Positions 54,812 through 64,000 of a stretch of 64,000 nt of DNA are shown piece by piece. Below the pieces are notes generated by a model that was not told where the DNA came from, did no database searches, and saw nothing but the letters and a program-made list of their open reading frames with translations. Made by a program: the position numbers and the translations under genes. Position 1 is the first letter of the stretch. Every line of letters starts with the position of its first letter. The stretch comes from Oscillospiraceae bacterium Marseille-Q3528 (lineage in GTDB: Bacteria > Bacillota > Clostridia > Lachnospirales > Lachnospiraceae), in the NCBI GenBank assembly GCA_018223385.1, contig JAGTTR010000018.1, positions 31,605 through 95,604 on the forward strand, written 5' to 3'.

Positions 54812-55898
54812 TCAGCGATCCTCGATCTCGTAATTGCCATAGTTGGTAAGTCCCATGAGATACGCACCACGGCTCTTGCACTCAAGCATATTGCTTATGG
54901 TCTTCTCGTACAATTCTGTCTGGATCAAAACACCGATCACCAGCGCTCCCGGCTCGATGAGGCTGATGGTTCCATGCTTTAACTCGCCAGCCGCATACGC
55001 TTCGGAATGAATATAAGAAATCTCTTCTAATTTCAGACTGCCCTCCAGGCAGACTGCATAGTCGATCCCGCGCTCCACAAAAAAGACATCATGAGCATTG
55101 GCATATTTTGCTGCAAACCACTGGATACGCTCTTTGTCTTCCAGAATTTTATGTATTTTCTCCGGGATTGTCCCCAGTTCAGAAATATAATGGGCATACT
55201 GGTCTTCCGTAATTTTCCCCCGGACTTTTGCAAACTGAACAGCCAGACAATACATGGCAATCAGCTGCGCACTGTAGGCTTTCGTTGTTGCGACCGAAAT
55301 TTCCGGCCCCGCAAGTGTGTAAAACACCTTGTCCGCCTCACGGGCAATGCTGCTGCCCACCACATTCACAATGGCCATCGTTGTCATATGTTTTTCTTTT
55401 ACCAGATCTTCAAACACATACTGTGCGTTTACCCCGATATAACTTGCTGATCCGCAGGCAATCACATAAATCTGTTCAAAATTGCGAATCTCATCATCGG
55501 TAAAAAGTATACCCATGCTTTAACAGTTTTTCTTTCAGCTCCGCATAGTTCTCGATGATGCCATTATGTACGCCCACCACTTCCGACTCCACCGGGCCTG
55601 ATCCTGATCTGCTGCAATTTCCGTACACATGGGGATGGGCATTGATCTGGCTGGGCTCTCCATGCGTCACCCAACGCGTATGTCCGATTCTGCAAGTGCC
55701 TTTTAACGCATTTCCGCCGTCTGTTTTCTCGACCAAATTTGAGAGACGTCCTTTTGCTTTCACAACCTGGGCCAGCGCCTCGCCATCTCGCACAGCCAGA
55801 CCGGCTGAATCATATCCTCTATATTCCAGTTTCGACAGTCCGTCCAACAGGATCAGCGCCACCTGCTATTTGCTAGTAAAGCCTACAATTCCACACAT
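54812..55898 (-). pseudogene. glmS: glmS (glucosamine-6-phosphate synthase), broken
   Basis: The start MCGIVGFTSK has the catalytic Cys, but codon 11 is TAG (55866-55868 region). After it the frame reads QVALILLDGLSKLEYRGYDS through HNGIIENYAELKEKLLKHGY, the glutaminase N-terminus. A large internal deletion near 55500 then joins, in another frame, to the sugar isomerase part (IYVIACGSASYIGVNAQYVF to [11 protein letters not shown]). The first SIS start and the last ~50 residues are missing. It has at least one nonsense mutation, one deletion/frameshift and a 3' truncation. Confidence 0.85.
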
Positions 55899-55944
55899 GA
55901 AAAAATCACCACTTTCGTACCTTGTTTTGTTTTTTATGATTACT

Positions 55945-55975
55945 GTAAGATTTTCTTAGGAGTACCTGCCCCTTG
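55945..55975 (-). repeat. REP-like element 2
   Basis: On the minus strand ACAAGGGGCAGGTACTCC followed by TAAGAAAATC, similar to element 1. Confidence 0.4.
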
Positions 55976-56026
55976 TACATTAATCTCTTGACATCACACC
56001 GCTGGACTTCTATATTTCGTAACTAT

Positions 56027-56060
56027 CTTAAGGCTTTCTTAACGGGGGCAGCCCCCTTTT
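56027..56060 (-). repeat. REP-like element 3 with GC hairpin
   Basis: On the minus strand AAAAGGGGGCTGCCCCCGTT followed by AAGAAAGCC; GGGGGC/GCCCCC is a perfect inverted repeat, as expected of REP hairpins. Confidence 0.4.
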
Positions 56061-56118
56061 ATTCTGGCTTTGCAACCATTTTTGTATCCTTCAACTGTCA
56101 AAAATGGAATCATGCTCT

Positions 56119-56415
56119 TTACATTTTATTTTTTGTTGGCATCGGAACAAATTCCAATTTTAATTGCATCCCTAATCCCTGTGCAAGTTTTTTCACCATA
56201 CTCAGGCTGGGATTTCTTGTTCCATTCTCAATCCGGCTTATATCTGCCTGCGTAATTCCGGTTTTAGCTGATAAATCTTTCTGTGTCATATTCTGCTGCA
56301 CTCTTGCATCAATCATTGCCTGGATAATATCATATTCCGGTTGCAATGCATCATATTCTGCTTTTACATCTGGATTCTGCAATGCTCTTTTTTTATAATC
56401 TTTATAGCTACTCAT
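56119..56415 (-). CDS. XRE-family antitoxin (HigA/RelB-like partner)
   Basis: 98 residues, MSSYKDYKKRALQNPDVKAE, with a helix-turn-helix (QNMTQKDLSAKTGITQADIS, RIENGTRNPSLSMVKKLAQG). GGAGG lies 8 nt before the ATG. The normal stop of the toxin frame overlaps this start. Because of a one-base change in the toxin gene, the antitoxin frame is at present also open from the toxin start codon, giving a potential 212-residue fusion. Confidence 0.85.
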   Translation of the reverse strand: MSSYKDYKKRALQNPDVKAEYDALQPEYDIIQAMIDARVQQNMTQKDLSAKTGITQADISRIENGTRNPSLSMVKKLAQGLGMQLKLEFVPMPTKNKM

Positions 56416-56757
56416 TGCCATACCTCCGTTCATAATCTGCTTTATATTTCTTTGCCAGTTCCTTTTCTGCCTTTGGTGTCTTCTGCGATTTTTTATAAAT
56501 CCATTTGCCAGCACCGCTTTCTTGCCTACAATAAAGAAATATAACACTCTTGTAATATCTGATCCCTGTTTGGTACGAAGCTCAAATATTCCATTCTCCA
56601 AGGGTTTTGAATATGGCTCACGAAGCAATGGGCCGTTCATTTCCAGCAAGTCAATTGTCCGCAATGTTTTTGCCAGTAACTTAGGCTCCAGGGAATCTAA
56701 TAGTTCCTGCACAGGGCATCTTCCATCTTCTGTATCATATAAAATGATCTCGTACAT
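56408..56757 (-). pseudogene. RelE/HigB-type toxin (Gp49-like) with a frameshift at an A6 run
   Basis: The first 89 residues (MYEIILYDTEDGRCPVQELL, LAKTLRTIDLLEMNGPLLRE, FELRTKQGSDITRVLYFF) match the phage-derived Gp49/HigB toxin family and include the conserved Arg/Lys residues of the RelE fold. After NGFIK the run A6 (56489-56494) leads into NRRRHQRQKRN and on into the antitoxin. With one more A the frame would read SQKTPKAEKELAKKYKADYE and end at 56408, the usual toxin ending. So the toxin is frameshifted, or the base count is wrong. Confidence 0.75.
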
Positions 56758-56967
56758 TAGTATGCTCCTTCCTCTTTATAATTATAATATGTTGTATTCA
56801 ACATATTGTCAAGCTGGTTCCGAATACTTTCCTATGTAATATTACGCATGATTTCTACAATATCTCCACTGTATATTCATCTTCTGAAATCATTCCCTGC
56901 TTTCTCTTTCCCCTGATTGTTTCCCACTGATAACGGAACTCATTGATTTTTTTGTTCAGAAGATTAA

Positions 56968-57123
56968 TCACAATCTCTCCTGTTCTGCTGTTTCGCTCTT
57001 TTTCAATATTTCAAGAAACATCTCAAAATCCATTTCATCTTGGAATATTGCCAGCCTGCGTATTCCTCTCTCCATCAGATGATATGTCGCCCCCGGAAAC
57101 CAATTTCTTAATTTTCTTGCTAT
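56968..57123 (-). pseudogene. RAYT (REP-associated Y1 transposase) N-terminal fragment
   Basis: ARKLRNWFPGATYHLMERGI, RRLAIFQDEMDFEMFLEILK is the N-terminus of IS200-like RAYT transposases (the GA-x-YH part of the HuH fold). The start codon is ATA instead of ATG and only 51 codons remain before a stop. The following frame (VINLLNKKINEFRYQWETIR) belongs to another fragment. Confidence 0.65.
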
Positions 57124-57160
57124 TTTGCTCTTCCTTCTGTTATATTTGTATTTTTTAATA

Positions 57161-57176
57161 ATATCATTAATGATAT
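57161..57176. promoter_or_regulatory. Palindrome ATATCAT-TA-ATGATAT
   Basis: Second perfect copy of the 53861 palindrome, at the end of a dispersed repeat (57161-57247) that also carries a GAAGCGAG hairpin and the codons for IELKLCDGIED. Confidence 0.55.
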
Positions 57177-57209
57177 CTTCTTCTGAAGAGAAGCCACCTC
57201 GCTTCTCCC

Positions 57210-57500
57210 TCAGTCTTCTATCCCGTCACATAATTTCAATTCTATATACCTCTCAAACGTGTCCTGTACCTTCTCCGCCACTTCTGATTCATACACACCG
57301 GCTGTGATGAGCAGCTTTCTCACTTTGATTGGGTTTAGGTTTAGCACCTCGGCGATGGATTGGAGGGAGCAGTCCTCCTCATAGAGCGCCACAGCCGCAT
57401 CCATCTGATCTTTCAGATTCTTCCCGGCATCGTATTCCGGCTTTAACTTTTTCCGGCCGCCGCCTGGTTTCCGGGGCTTATACTTTCTTTTCTCTCCCAT
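57210..57500 (-). CDS. Helix-turn-helix protein with a substituted C-terminus
   Basis: 96 residues. A basic start (MGEKRKYKPRKPGGGRKKLK) precedes a helix-turn-helix (DCSLQSIAEVLNLNPIKVRK) like those of small phage/ICE replication or regulatory proteins in Clostridia. From about residue 84 the end IELKLCDGIED is identical to the end of the XRE protein at 53.9 kb, because a dispersed repeat replaced the original 3' part. The relatives I remember are longer. It starts 4 bp after the GNAT gene stop without a clear ribosome binding site. Confidence 0.6.
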   Translation of the reverse strand: MGEKRKYKPRKPGGGRKKLKPEYDAGKNLKDQMDAAVALYEEDCSLQSIAEVLNLNPIKVRKLLITAGVYESEVAEKVQDTFERYIELKLCDGIED

Positions 57501-61249: not shown

Positions 61250-61276
61250 AATTTCTTCCTCTTTTCTTGTTTTCAC

Positions 61277-61399: not shown

Positions 61400-62477
61400 T
61401 TAATTATCCAGCAAATTGCTCTTTGTCTTGGAAGCCAAAACGAAGCATCCTTTTATAGCACAGAAAAATCTAATTCTTAGTAATTCTATCACTGTACACG
61501 TAGCGTAAACAGAAGCAATAGAAAAATAAAAGCATAAAATAAATATTATTACATTGTCAGTCGGAACATTAATGAATATATTTTTAAATACCAAGTCGTT
61601 AAAGTAGTTATTATTATGGATTAAATAAACACCAAATGTCGCAGATGAAAGTATTCTAAGTTCCTTTTCCTTGAGCAAAAAATTTTTAAAATCAATTTTC
61701 AGAAACAACATAAAAAGAACAACTGCCATAAAAATGATATTCGGTGCATTATAAGAGTACAATCGTCCCCATATATTTATCCCATATTTCTGCATCAGTA
61801 GTTTTAGCACAGATGTAATCAATACATCACTAATCAAAAGGAGCTGTAACGTCTGTCTACTAAATCTTTCTTCCATTCTATATTTCTTGATTCCAGCACC
61901 AAGTATATATACTATCGCAAGCCACCATACCGAAAAGCCTCGATTCAAGAAAAAAATATCATCCTTTATAAAAAAAGCATAAAGCGAAAACAACAAAACA
62001 ACATTAAATATATCCTTTTTAAATTCCTGTTCAGAACAAGATGTAACAATTGCATTGAGAGTAGGCATCAAAAAGAATAGCCCCACATAAGCCGTGAAAT
62101 ACCAATACTGGTTTGTTGATATCGGAAAAAAGCTTTTGCACACAGATAGTAATGTAACTTTTTTGGGGAATACAATATTGAACAGCACTGCAAAGAAAGC
62201 GGAATAAAAGCAAACTTCCACCCACAAGCCTGCTAATTTATTCCAACGCTTTTTACCATCTGTTAATAGGTAGCCCGAAATCAAGGCAAAACAATTAACA
62301 GCACAAATCGAAATTGTATGATTAAGTGACACAAATAGAGATAGAAACAGATTGGCTTCGCTCAATTTTATAAAACCGCCGTAATCCATGCAATGTAATG
62401 CAACTACCAGCAACATTGCAACAATTCTAATCATATCTATATTAGAATTACGATTATTTATTTTTTTCCCCCCCCAT
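61400..62477 (-). CDS. Acyltransferase family 3 membrane protein, start out of frame (candidate phase-variable gene)
   Basis: From the Met at 62434 the frame encodes 344 residues with about ten membrane helices, beginning MIRIVAMLLVVALHC (catalytic His in the first helix), as in O-acetyltransferases of surface polysaccharides. The natural start is the ATG at 62475-62477: it overlaps the stop codon of the upstream gene (TAATG), has AAGGAGG 10 nt before it, and would add the conserved NNRNSNID in front of MIRIV. It is followed by seven G and seven A; in this sequence it reads six codons beyond the ATG and hits TAA. Loss of one base in the tract would restore a 358-residue protein. Confidence 0.82.
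62461..62475 (-). repeat. Homopolymer tract G8 then A7 at the acyltransferase start codon
   Basis: On the plus strand T7 (62461-62467) and C8 (62468-62475). The first G of the minus-strand run belongs to the ATG. Tracts like this change length by slipped-strand mispairing. Confidence 0.85.
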
Positions 62478-63385
62478 TATAATTTTTCCTCCTTAAACAT
62501 CTCATAATATGTTTGTGAATAATCTTTTGGAATAAGGTATTTATTTGATAACTTATGAATTGGAGTTATTTTTTTCAGTGTTTCCCAATAGCTCTTTTCA
62601 TATTTCTTAAAGAAGACTTTTCCAAGCATGTGCGAAATTGCATCTGGCATAAACACTATGTCTTCAAACAAATCTTTATAGTACGGAATTACCAGTGTTG
62701 TGAATAAGTGCCATTGGAAATAGTCTCTTACTTTATTTTCTTTTTCCCAATAGTAATAATTAATGTCCCTCAAAGTTTTAAGAATCGGATAATCTCTTTT
62801 GGAATATATAAAATAATTATTATAAACTCTAGTTATATCCTCAGAATCATCAATAGCATACATGAAAATATCTTTTTCATAGACCCAATCAGGAATTGGC
62901 CCAGATAGAAAAATGGTGCTATCCATCCAAAGACCGCCGTAGCGAATCAGCAACTCCATCCTAAGAAAATCCGACATTTTCGTATCAGTAATTAATCCCC
63001 TCTTCCATTTTTTTAGAATATGGTCCGGGAAGTTAACATACTGATCCATGTTTTCTTTTGTGATGACAATTATCTCTTTATCCGGCATATTCCGTTTAAC
63101 CGACGCATAACATCTTTTAACTAATTCCGGAGCATTTTCCATTCCTTGAAACCAGCAGATCCAAATATATTTATCTCCACTAGCGTCACATTCTTCCGCT
63201 TTTTTATATAAGAATTCACTTATCTTACGACTATAGTTCTTATCTAAATATTGATAGACCTTATTTTTTATTTCAAGCCCTGCAATGTTTCTGTTAGAAT
63301 ACCCGAATAAATTGAGAATTTCCGTAACTATCCTATATTTCAGATTTCCTTCTTGTAGAGCTCTCTTTATTTTTCGACTGTCCAC
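62477..63385 (-). CDS. Capsular polysaccharide glycosyltransferase (Caps_synth/GT32-like)
   Basis: 302 residues. KYIWICWFQGMENAPELVKR and SDFLRMELLIRYGGLWMDST contain the nucleotide-sugar and metal site (D-x-D-like in WMDST) of the family of OCH1/capsule synthesis glycosyltransferases. It acts in the cytosol on the growing repeat unit. The stop codon overlaps the acyltransferase ATG; the upstream flippase gene ends 15 bp before its start region. Confidence 0.85.
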   Translation of the reverse strand: MDSRKIKRALQEGNLKYRIVTEILNLFGYSNRNIAGLEIKNKVYQYLDKNYSRKISEFLYKKAEECDASGDKYIWICWFQGMENAPELVKRCYASVKRNMPDKEIIVITKENMDQYVNFPDHILKKWKRGLITDTKMSDFLRMELLIRYGGLWMDSTIFLSGPIPDWVYEKDIFMYAIDDSEDITRVYNNYFIYSKRDYPILKTLRDINYYYWEKENKVRDYFQWHLFTTLVIPYYKDLFEDIVFMPDAISHMLGKVFFKKYEKSYWETLKKITPIHKLSNKYLIPKDYSQTYYEMFKEEKL

Positions 63386-63400
63386 ACCTACACCTCATTT

Positions 63401-64000
63401 TTACCTTTTAAGCAGTTTATTTAACAGTAACATAAAATTATTCCTAGAAAAATATAACACTAATACAAATAATATAATTTCAATGAAAGTCTCTCTCAAC
63501 AAGCTTAGTCCAGCAATTTGCACTACCGCTTGCAGTAATAGTACAAAATAGTTGAGAGCGTCTTTTTTTATTTCAACGGTAAATTCAAACAGTTTATAGG
63601 ATTTATAAAGTCTAATAAGCCAAACTGTAAAATAAGACATTAGCGTAGCAAATGAAGCGCCCAATGCATTAAAGAAAAATGTTAGTGGAATATTCAGCAT
63701 AACATTGATACATGCCCCTGAAAATGAAGACATCGCATTAATTCTAGATTGCTTCACTGCTGCAAACATCCCCCCCAATAGACCACACATTCCACCGAAC
63801 ACCACAGAAATCATTAGAAATGGAGCAAACTTCCAGGCATTATAAAAATCATTTGCAAACAATATCTTCGCAATCAATTTATTAAAAACAAGTAACCCTG
63901 AACAAACAACAGTCATACCTGTATTGTAAATTTTATATACATTTTCATAAAAATCTGTAGTCCTAGTTTCATCATTTTCTTTTACTGCTGACAATAACCA
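63401..64000 (-). CDS. Polysaccharide flippase (Wzx/RfbX-like), C-terminal part
   Basis: About 200 residues are visible; the frame is open to the window edge, so the gene starts beyond it. Several membrane helices with GGMCGLLGGMFAAVKQSRIN, FSGACINVMLNIPLTFFFNA, and LGASFATLMSYFTVWLIRLY are typical of the C-terminal half of MOP-superfamily flippases. It would move lipid-linked repeat units across the membrane. Confidence 0.87.
   Translation of the reverse strand, partial: WLLSAVKENDETRTTDFYENVYKIYNTGMTVVCSGLLVFNKLIAKILFANDFYNAWKFAPFLMISVVFGGMCGLLGGMFAAVKQSRINAMSSFSGACINVMLNIPLTFFFNALGASFATLMSYFTVWLIRLYKSYKLFEFTVEIKKDALNYFVLLLQAVVQIAGLSLLRETFIEIILFVLVLYFSRNNFMLLLNKLLKR

Follow-up and report, generated by a model that had tools for sequence, protein, structure and literature searches.

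The analysed window, a stretch of 64,000 nt from Oscillospiraceae bacterium Marseille-Q3528 (GCA_018223385.1, contig JAGTTR010000018.1, 31,605-95,604), carries on its minus strand a capsular glycosyltransferase gene followed by the gene of a membrane acyltransferase, between which lies an ATG that runs directly into a G8-A7 tract (Table 1). The overlap of this ATG with the glycosyltransferase stop, the AAGGAGG motif, the runs of G and A and the TAA at codon 8, all named in the original prediction, were confirmed to the base, and the prediction was also right that the acyltransferase body lies in another register than the tract ATG. Beyond the tract, the reading frame of the acyltransferase continues without a stop for 355 codons and shows no other damage. 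Neither the tract ATG nor the ATG at 62505 is in register with it; in the window it shares the phase of the glycosyltransferase and lies behind the TAA of that gene. The repeat tract sets the frame of the gene, and with G8-A7 at the ATG the acyltransferase body is out of register here. The true N-terminus of the acyltransferase is somewhere from the tract to 62434.

Table 1. Positions of the genes and start-region features within the window.
Feature	Position	Strand	Remarks
Caps_synth capsular glycosyltransferase	62477..63385	-	PF05704, 247.4 bits
Weak upstream ATG	62503..62505	-	Out of register here; listed start of homologues P0002 and P0008
Ribosome site AAGGAGG	62488..62494	-	Pairing -11.1 kcal/mol
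Glycosyltransferase stop TAA	62479-62477	-	Last A is the first base of the tract ATG (TAATG)
Tract ATG	62475..62477	-	Overlaps glycosyltransferase stop; reading frame closes at codon 8
G8 tract	62468..62475	-	First G is the G of the ATG
A7 tract	62461..62467	-	Directly 3' of the G8 tract
TAA, codon 8 of the tract-ATG frame	62456-62454	-	
Acyltransferase body from internal ATG	61400..62434	-	PF01757, 92.3 bits

When the tract, upstream and internal ATGs were compared, a strong ribosome site was found only at the tract ATG. The AAGGAGG motif is 10 bases upstream of this codon, and its pairing of -11.1 kcal/mol compares with a 1st percentile of -11.5 kcal/mol at random positions (n = 2000). The pairing at the upstream ATG (62505) was just -0.5 kcal/mol.

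The acyltransferase body matched PF01757 (Acyl_transf_3) well above the cut-off of 31 bits, and the match covers profile positions 7-321 of 326. In a family alignment of 57 hand-picked sequences from the 120 listed homologues (truncated and chimeric rows were omitted, others were left out for size), R17 of the first helix is kept in 55 rows and H28 in all 57; both residues, which have a catalytic role in such enzymes, are present in the window frame. Searches with the acyltransferase among PDB sequences and in NCBIfam returned nothing. In a structure model of the homologue P0003, the tract-coded residues 1-6 are predicted to be disordered.

Genomic context of the tract

The nearest genome, G001, matches the window at 29251-54910 (97.1%) and 55200-57247 (99.1%), and DNA shared with it resumes beyond the cassette at 61251 (86%); the acyltransferase is therefore the last gene of a strain-specific capsule cassette. 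No copy of the acyltransferase was found in G001 by DNA or protein searches, and the glycosyltransferase had no match there in a search run without a positive control. The next cassette gene (63401-63994), which resembles the end of a flippase, gave no Pfam or NCBIfam match and contains an in-frame G7 run at 63770-63776. Elsewhere in the window, two pieces with SIS and GATase_6 domains (54812-55862, about 99% common to G001) look to us like a decayed glutamine-fructose-6-phosphate transaminase.

The G8 is the only G/C run of at least eight within the 64-kb window. Shuffles of the window gave a mean expectation of 1.95 G8-type runs, so the G8 alone is not significant window-wide, while 0.07 such runs were expected under a first-order model built on the final 8 kb of the window. 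The tract thus gains its significance through where it lies and through the comparison of homologues, not from run length by itself.

Start registers of homologous proteins

A protein search returned 988 relatives, of which 120 were listed, each of them representing a cluster from other samples and counted without its members. Among the matches listed, P0001-P0008 are at least 76% identical to the window protein and not visibly chimeric, and six of them have a visible N-terminus. Three start at the tract, P0001 with MGGGKINN, P0003 with MGGEKNNN and P0006 with MRGGEKINN. Two others, P0002 (a cluster of 562 member sequences) and P0008, start with MRCLRR..NYN, the translation of the ribosome-site region when reading begins at the ATG equivalent to 62505. 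The sixth, P0005 (76%), starts with MQGEK and has no poly-G tract. The downstream NNRNSNID is kept in all five of P0001, P0003, P0006, P0002 and P0008; P0003 and P0008 differ also in the flank, beyond the tract. The count of registers omits P0004, which is listed from an internal Met, and P0007, which comes without an N-terminus, as well as P0009, P0010 and P0012. The last three join acyltransferase pieces to other sequence (PF13439 in P0009, PF00239 in P0012) and are either assembly chimeras or real rearrangements.

Read from the DNA of the window and from the protein starts of the homologues, these data indicate that all three registers exist in nature. The alignment of the start region in relatives that had been proposed thus revealed varying registers with kept flanks, at the protein level as far as this tract is concerned, and the differing registers speak against a single fixed tract length. 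As DNA, the gene pair gave only three short, chance-like matches in 145 relatives, none of them in G001. The protein had 23 matches in 397 genomes of the family, at no more than 35% identity and with no close copy among them, and a further search of genome contigs with the protein found three loci at 28-32% identity. Because no close copy was found, the DNA of other alleles of the window tract could not be read. A plasmid search gave no match.

Tract length variation in other capsule genes

The capsule region of G001 (3157009-3178758) holds two of the nine distinct G8+ tracts of that genome (binomial 0.0013, post hoc). There, an FrhB-like gene is split at a G8 into a PF04432 piece and an iron-sulphur piece in different frames. 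This gene also occurs, with matching flanks, in G228, a genome counted as another genus, where the tract is G9 and the gene is also out of frame; the FrhB-like region is 99.1% identical between the two genomes over 3.8 kb. This difference, G8 versus G9, is the one case in which a register difference was seen at the DNA level. The other G001 tract, at 3161660, gives weak support, since it is found where its gene ends (3') and the G228 counterpart has a T within the run.

Intact and tract-truncated FrhB-like representatives coexist among the proteins: P0124 (1,830 members) runs unbroken through the tract site, and P0123, P0127 and P0130 start immediately downstream of it. Furthermore, P0131, P0132 and P0134 differ only in the number of glycines at the tract (1, 3 and 4, respectively), and P0133 has two glycines there together with one other change. 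The 120 listed FrhB rows, again cluster representatives, comprise 93 intact proteins, 25 short ones and 2 without the hinge motif; 23 of the intact rows have GG or more before this motif and 70 do not. These sequence comparisons provide direct evidence that the length of such G tracts changes in Lachnospiraceae capsule genes.

In addition, the capsule locus of G228 contains a glycosyltransferase gene (PF00535) with an in-frame G9 near its start, in an open frame that is short (167 codons), and PF01757 genes of two further genomes (G314 and G029) have in-frame G9 tracts at other positions. In genome G339 (L085, around 2668), an FrhB-like gene ends in a G9 directly before TAATG, an arrangement that is the mirror image of the tract/TAATG order in the window.

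G tracts across Lachnospiraceae genomes

We considered the combination of a ribosome site, an ATG and poly-G as a family-wide signature and rejected it, since it was not enriched: seven matches were found in 6 of the 397 genomes, compared with 14 for the reversed control. G9+ tracts are common, with a total of 135 in 37 of the 45 genomes surveyed. Thirty of them, one per genome, were studied. Nine were in an open frame of at least 200 codons on the G strand and 11 on either strand, and the other 19 were in no such frame on either strand. For the nine G-strand tracts (10 proteins), Pfam matches were obtained for eight proteins on seven tracts, including one PF01757, one hexapeptide transferase and one split DNA methylase. 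This survey of 30 tracts supports no claim of enrichment at capsule genes, and the presence of a G tract does not by itself prove a switch.

Several individual tracts may be recorded here. A C5 DNA methylase gene (PF00145) in genome G039 (L161, 929-2415) is split between frames at a G9, with 191 codons before and 301 after the break, and its sequence makes it a candidate phase-variable methylase. In genome G008 (L163, 1253-1882), an in-frame G9 lies inside a gene for a hexapeptide-repeat transferase, another type of acyltransferase. Hybrid histidine kinase genes end in a G9 at a like place in G001 (L062, 3581508) and in genome G031 (L153); this identity was assigned by Pfam for L153 and by eye for L062. 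Finally, a replication initiation gene (PF02486) in G001 (L057, 3309931; 422-1508) opens directly after a G8 whose upstream start is in another frame.

Discussion

Slipped-strand change of the G tract is likely to switch the acyltransferase, and the copy in the window would be OFF. The original prediction of a phase-variable switch is thus supported by the variation of registers among homologues, by the evidence against a start at 62434 and by the variation of the sister tract. As we envisage this putative contingency (phase-variable) locus of the capsule cassette, bases would be added to or lost from the start-codon G tract during replication. In the ON register, the strong, stop-coupled ATG would be in frame with the membrane acyltransferase; in a second register, only the weak upstream ATG would be in frame, probably with low expression as the result; and in the third register, which is the one present here, neither ATG would be in frame and the gene would be OFF. 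The residues encoded by the tract are predicted to form a disordered tail ahead of the first membrane helix, and steps of three bases should accordingly be harmless. With the acyltransferase gene at the end of the cassette, switching should alter the acyl decoration of the polymer and not stop its synthesis. Reversible switching in one clone, the expression levels and the acylated product are what we infer from this arrangement.

The locus could instead hold a fixed frameshift, that is, a recent pseudogene of this strain that does not switch back, and we regard this as unlikely. One allele of the strain was seen, and broken genes are frequent in capsule cassettes, the FrhB-like genes of G001 and G228 among them. 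However, the acyltransferase frame is undamaged throughout its open length, the break sits exactly at the slippage-prone tract, and large homologue clusters keep tract and body together.

An error of assembly or sequencing in the tract length, which had been raised as an objection from the outset, is very improbable. Homopolymers are the usual site of such errors, but the part of the window aligned with G001 contains 49 homopolymers of at least six bases and only four one-base indels in runs of at least five. These few differences and the tract variation in the related capsule gene weaken the objection, and the registers of the homologues would still differ if the run had been miscounted in the window. 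We give as little credence to transcriptional slippage or ribosomal frameshifting on G8-A7, by which some protein would be made from unchanged DNA. Long runs of A and G are known slippage sites, and such events could still add leaky expression, but they leave the register differences between strains and the glycine numbers of the sister gene unexplained. We rate slipped-strand phase variation as more likely than each of these alternatives (fixed loss, assembly error, and slippage on unchanged DNA). Translation from the internal ATG at 62434, which would make the tract irrelevant, can practically be dismissed. In its favour, no stop interrupts the frame after this ATG, and the listed sequence of P0004 starts with the equivalent Met; P0004, however, derives from contigs no longer than 1,448 bases and may itself be OFF or have been cut. 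The ATG is without a ribosome site (pairing +0.5 kcal/mol), its Met is Met in just 4 of the 57 aligned rows, and R9 (kept in 53 of 57) and D14 (54 of 57) would be lost. The natural start at this position that had been considered is thus contradicted by the alignment of the family and by the lack of a ribosome site.

Beyond slipped-strand switching of this one gene, we lean slightly towards a broader picture, in which capsule cassettes of gut Lachnospiraceae would contain independently switching poly-G contingency genes (acyltransferases, FrhB-like proteins and glycosyltransferases) that yield many coat variants per strain. To such a set, the window gene would add a last-placed start switch with three registers (strong ATG, weak ATG and off) that changes decoration and not synthesis. 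If this holds, the slippage repertoire of Lachnospiraceae would be a form of coat variation that inversion finders miss, and it would bear on antibodies, phages and colonisation. It can be checked in existing reads through tract lengths at a few sites.

Switching by slippage is a mechanism known elsewhere, and capsule variation in gut commensals is known mainly as DNA inversion (Bacteroides, Akkermansia). In our literature searches, some of which covered the best matches only, no report of a slippage switch in Lachnospiraceae was found. The lic genes of Haemophilus influenzae have several start codons before the repeat, and the register chooses the start, with graded expression; as proposed for the window, the register decides the start codon, whereas the repeats are tetranucleotides and the genes are others. 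wciZ of Streptococcus pneumoniae is a capsule O-acetyltransferase gene. A TA repeat in wciZ separates serotypes 15B and 15C (PMC5869949), so that a slipped-strand change alters capsule structure in a Gram-positive bacterium, as proposed for the window; in contrast, wciZ has a dinucleotide repeat inside a pathogen gene, and the window has poly-G at the start codon in a gut commensal.

In Neisseria meningitidis, homopolymers of at least seven switch glycan genes, and the O-acetyltransferase gene pglI is phase-variable in carriage pairs (PMC5445459); it resembles the window gene as a phase-variable glycan O-acetyltransferase but acts in protein glycosylation in a Gram-negative bacterium. A change between G8 and G9 shifts the frame of the surface-glycan gene cgtB of Campylobacter jejuni (PMC6437147), although cgtB encodes a lipooligosaccharide galactosyltransferase and its tract is mid-gene. 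The cps1 inverton of Akkermansia muciniphila varies the capsule of a gut commensal within a population by inversion of DNA for a whole locus (PMC13343947), whereas the window would vary one modification gene by slippage. A 2025 review names Clostridioides for inversion and Gardnerella for repeats (PMC11868660). In Bifidobacterium breve UCC2003, replication slippage of a G tract, which shows a range of lengths within the population, switches sortase-dependent pili (PMC9187656). This system is like the proposed one in having an intragenic G tract that turns a surface structure ON or OFF in a Gram-positive gut commensal. The window gene, a PF01757 gene beside a capsule glycosyltransferase, would work alike but was rejected as a member of this pilus-type switch: the B. 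breve tracts belong to actinobacterial pilus genes, and the tract described here stands at the start codon of a Lachnospiraceae capsule acyltransferase.
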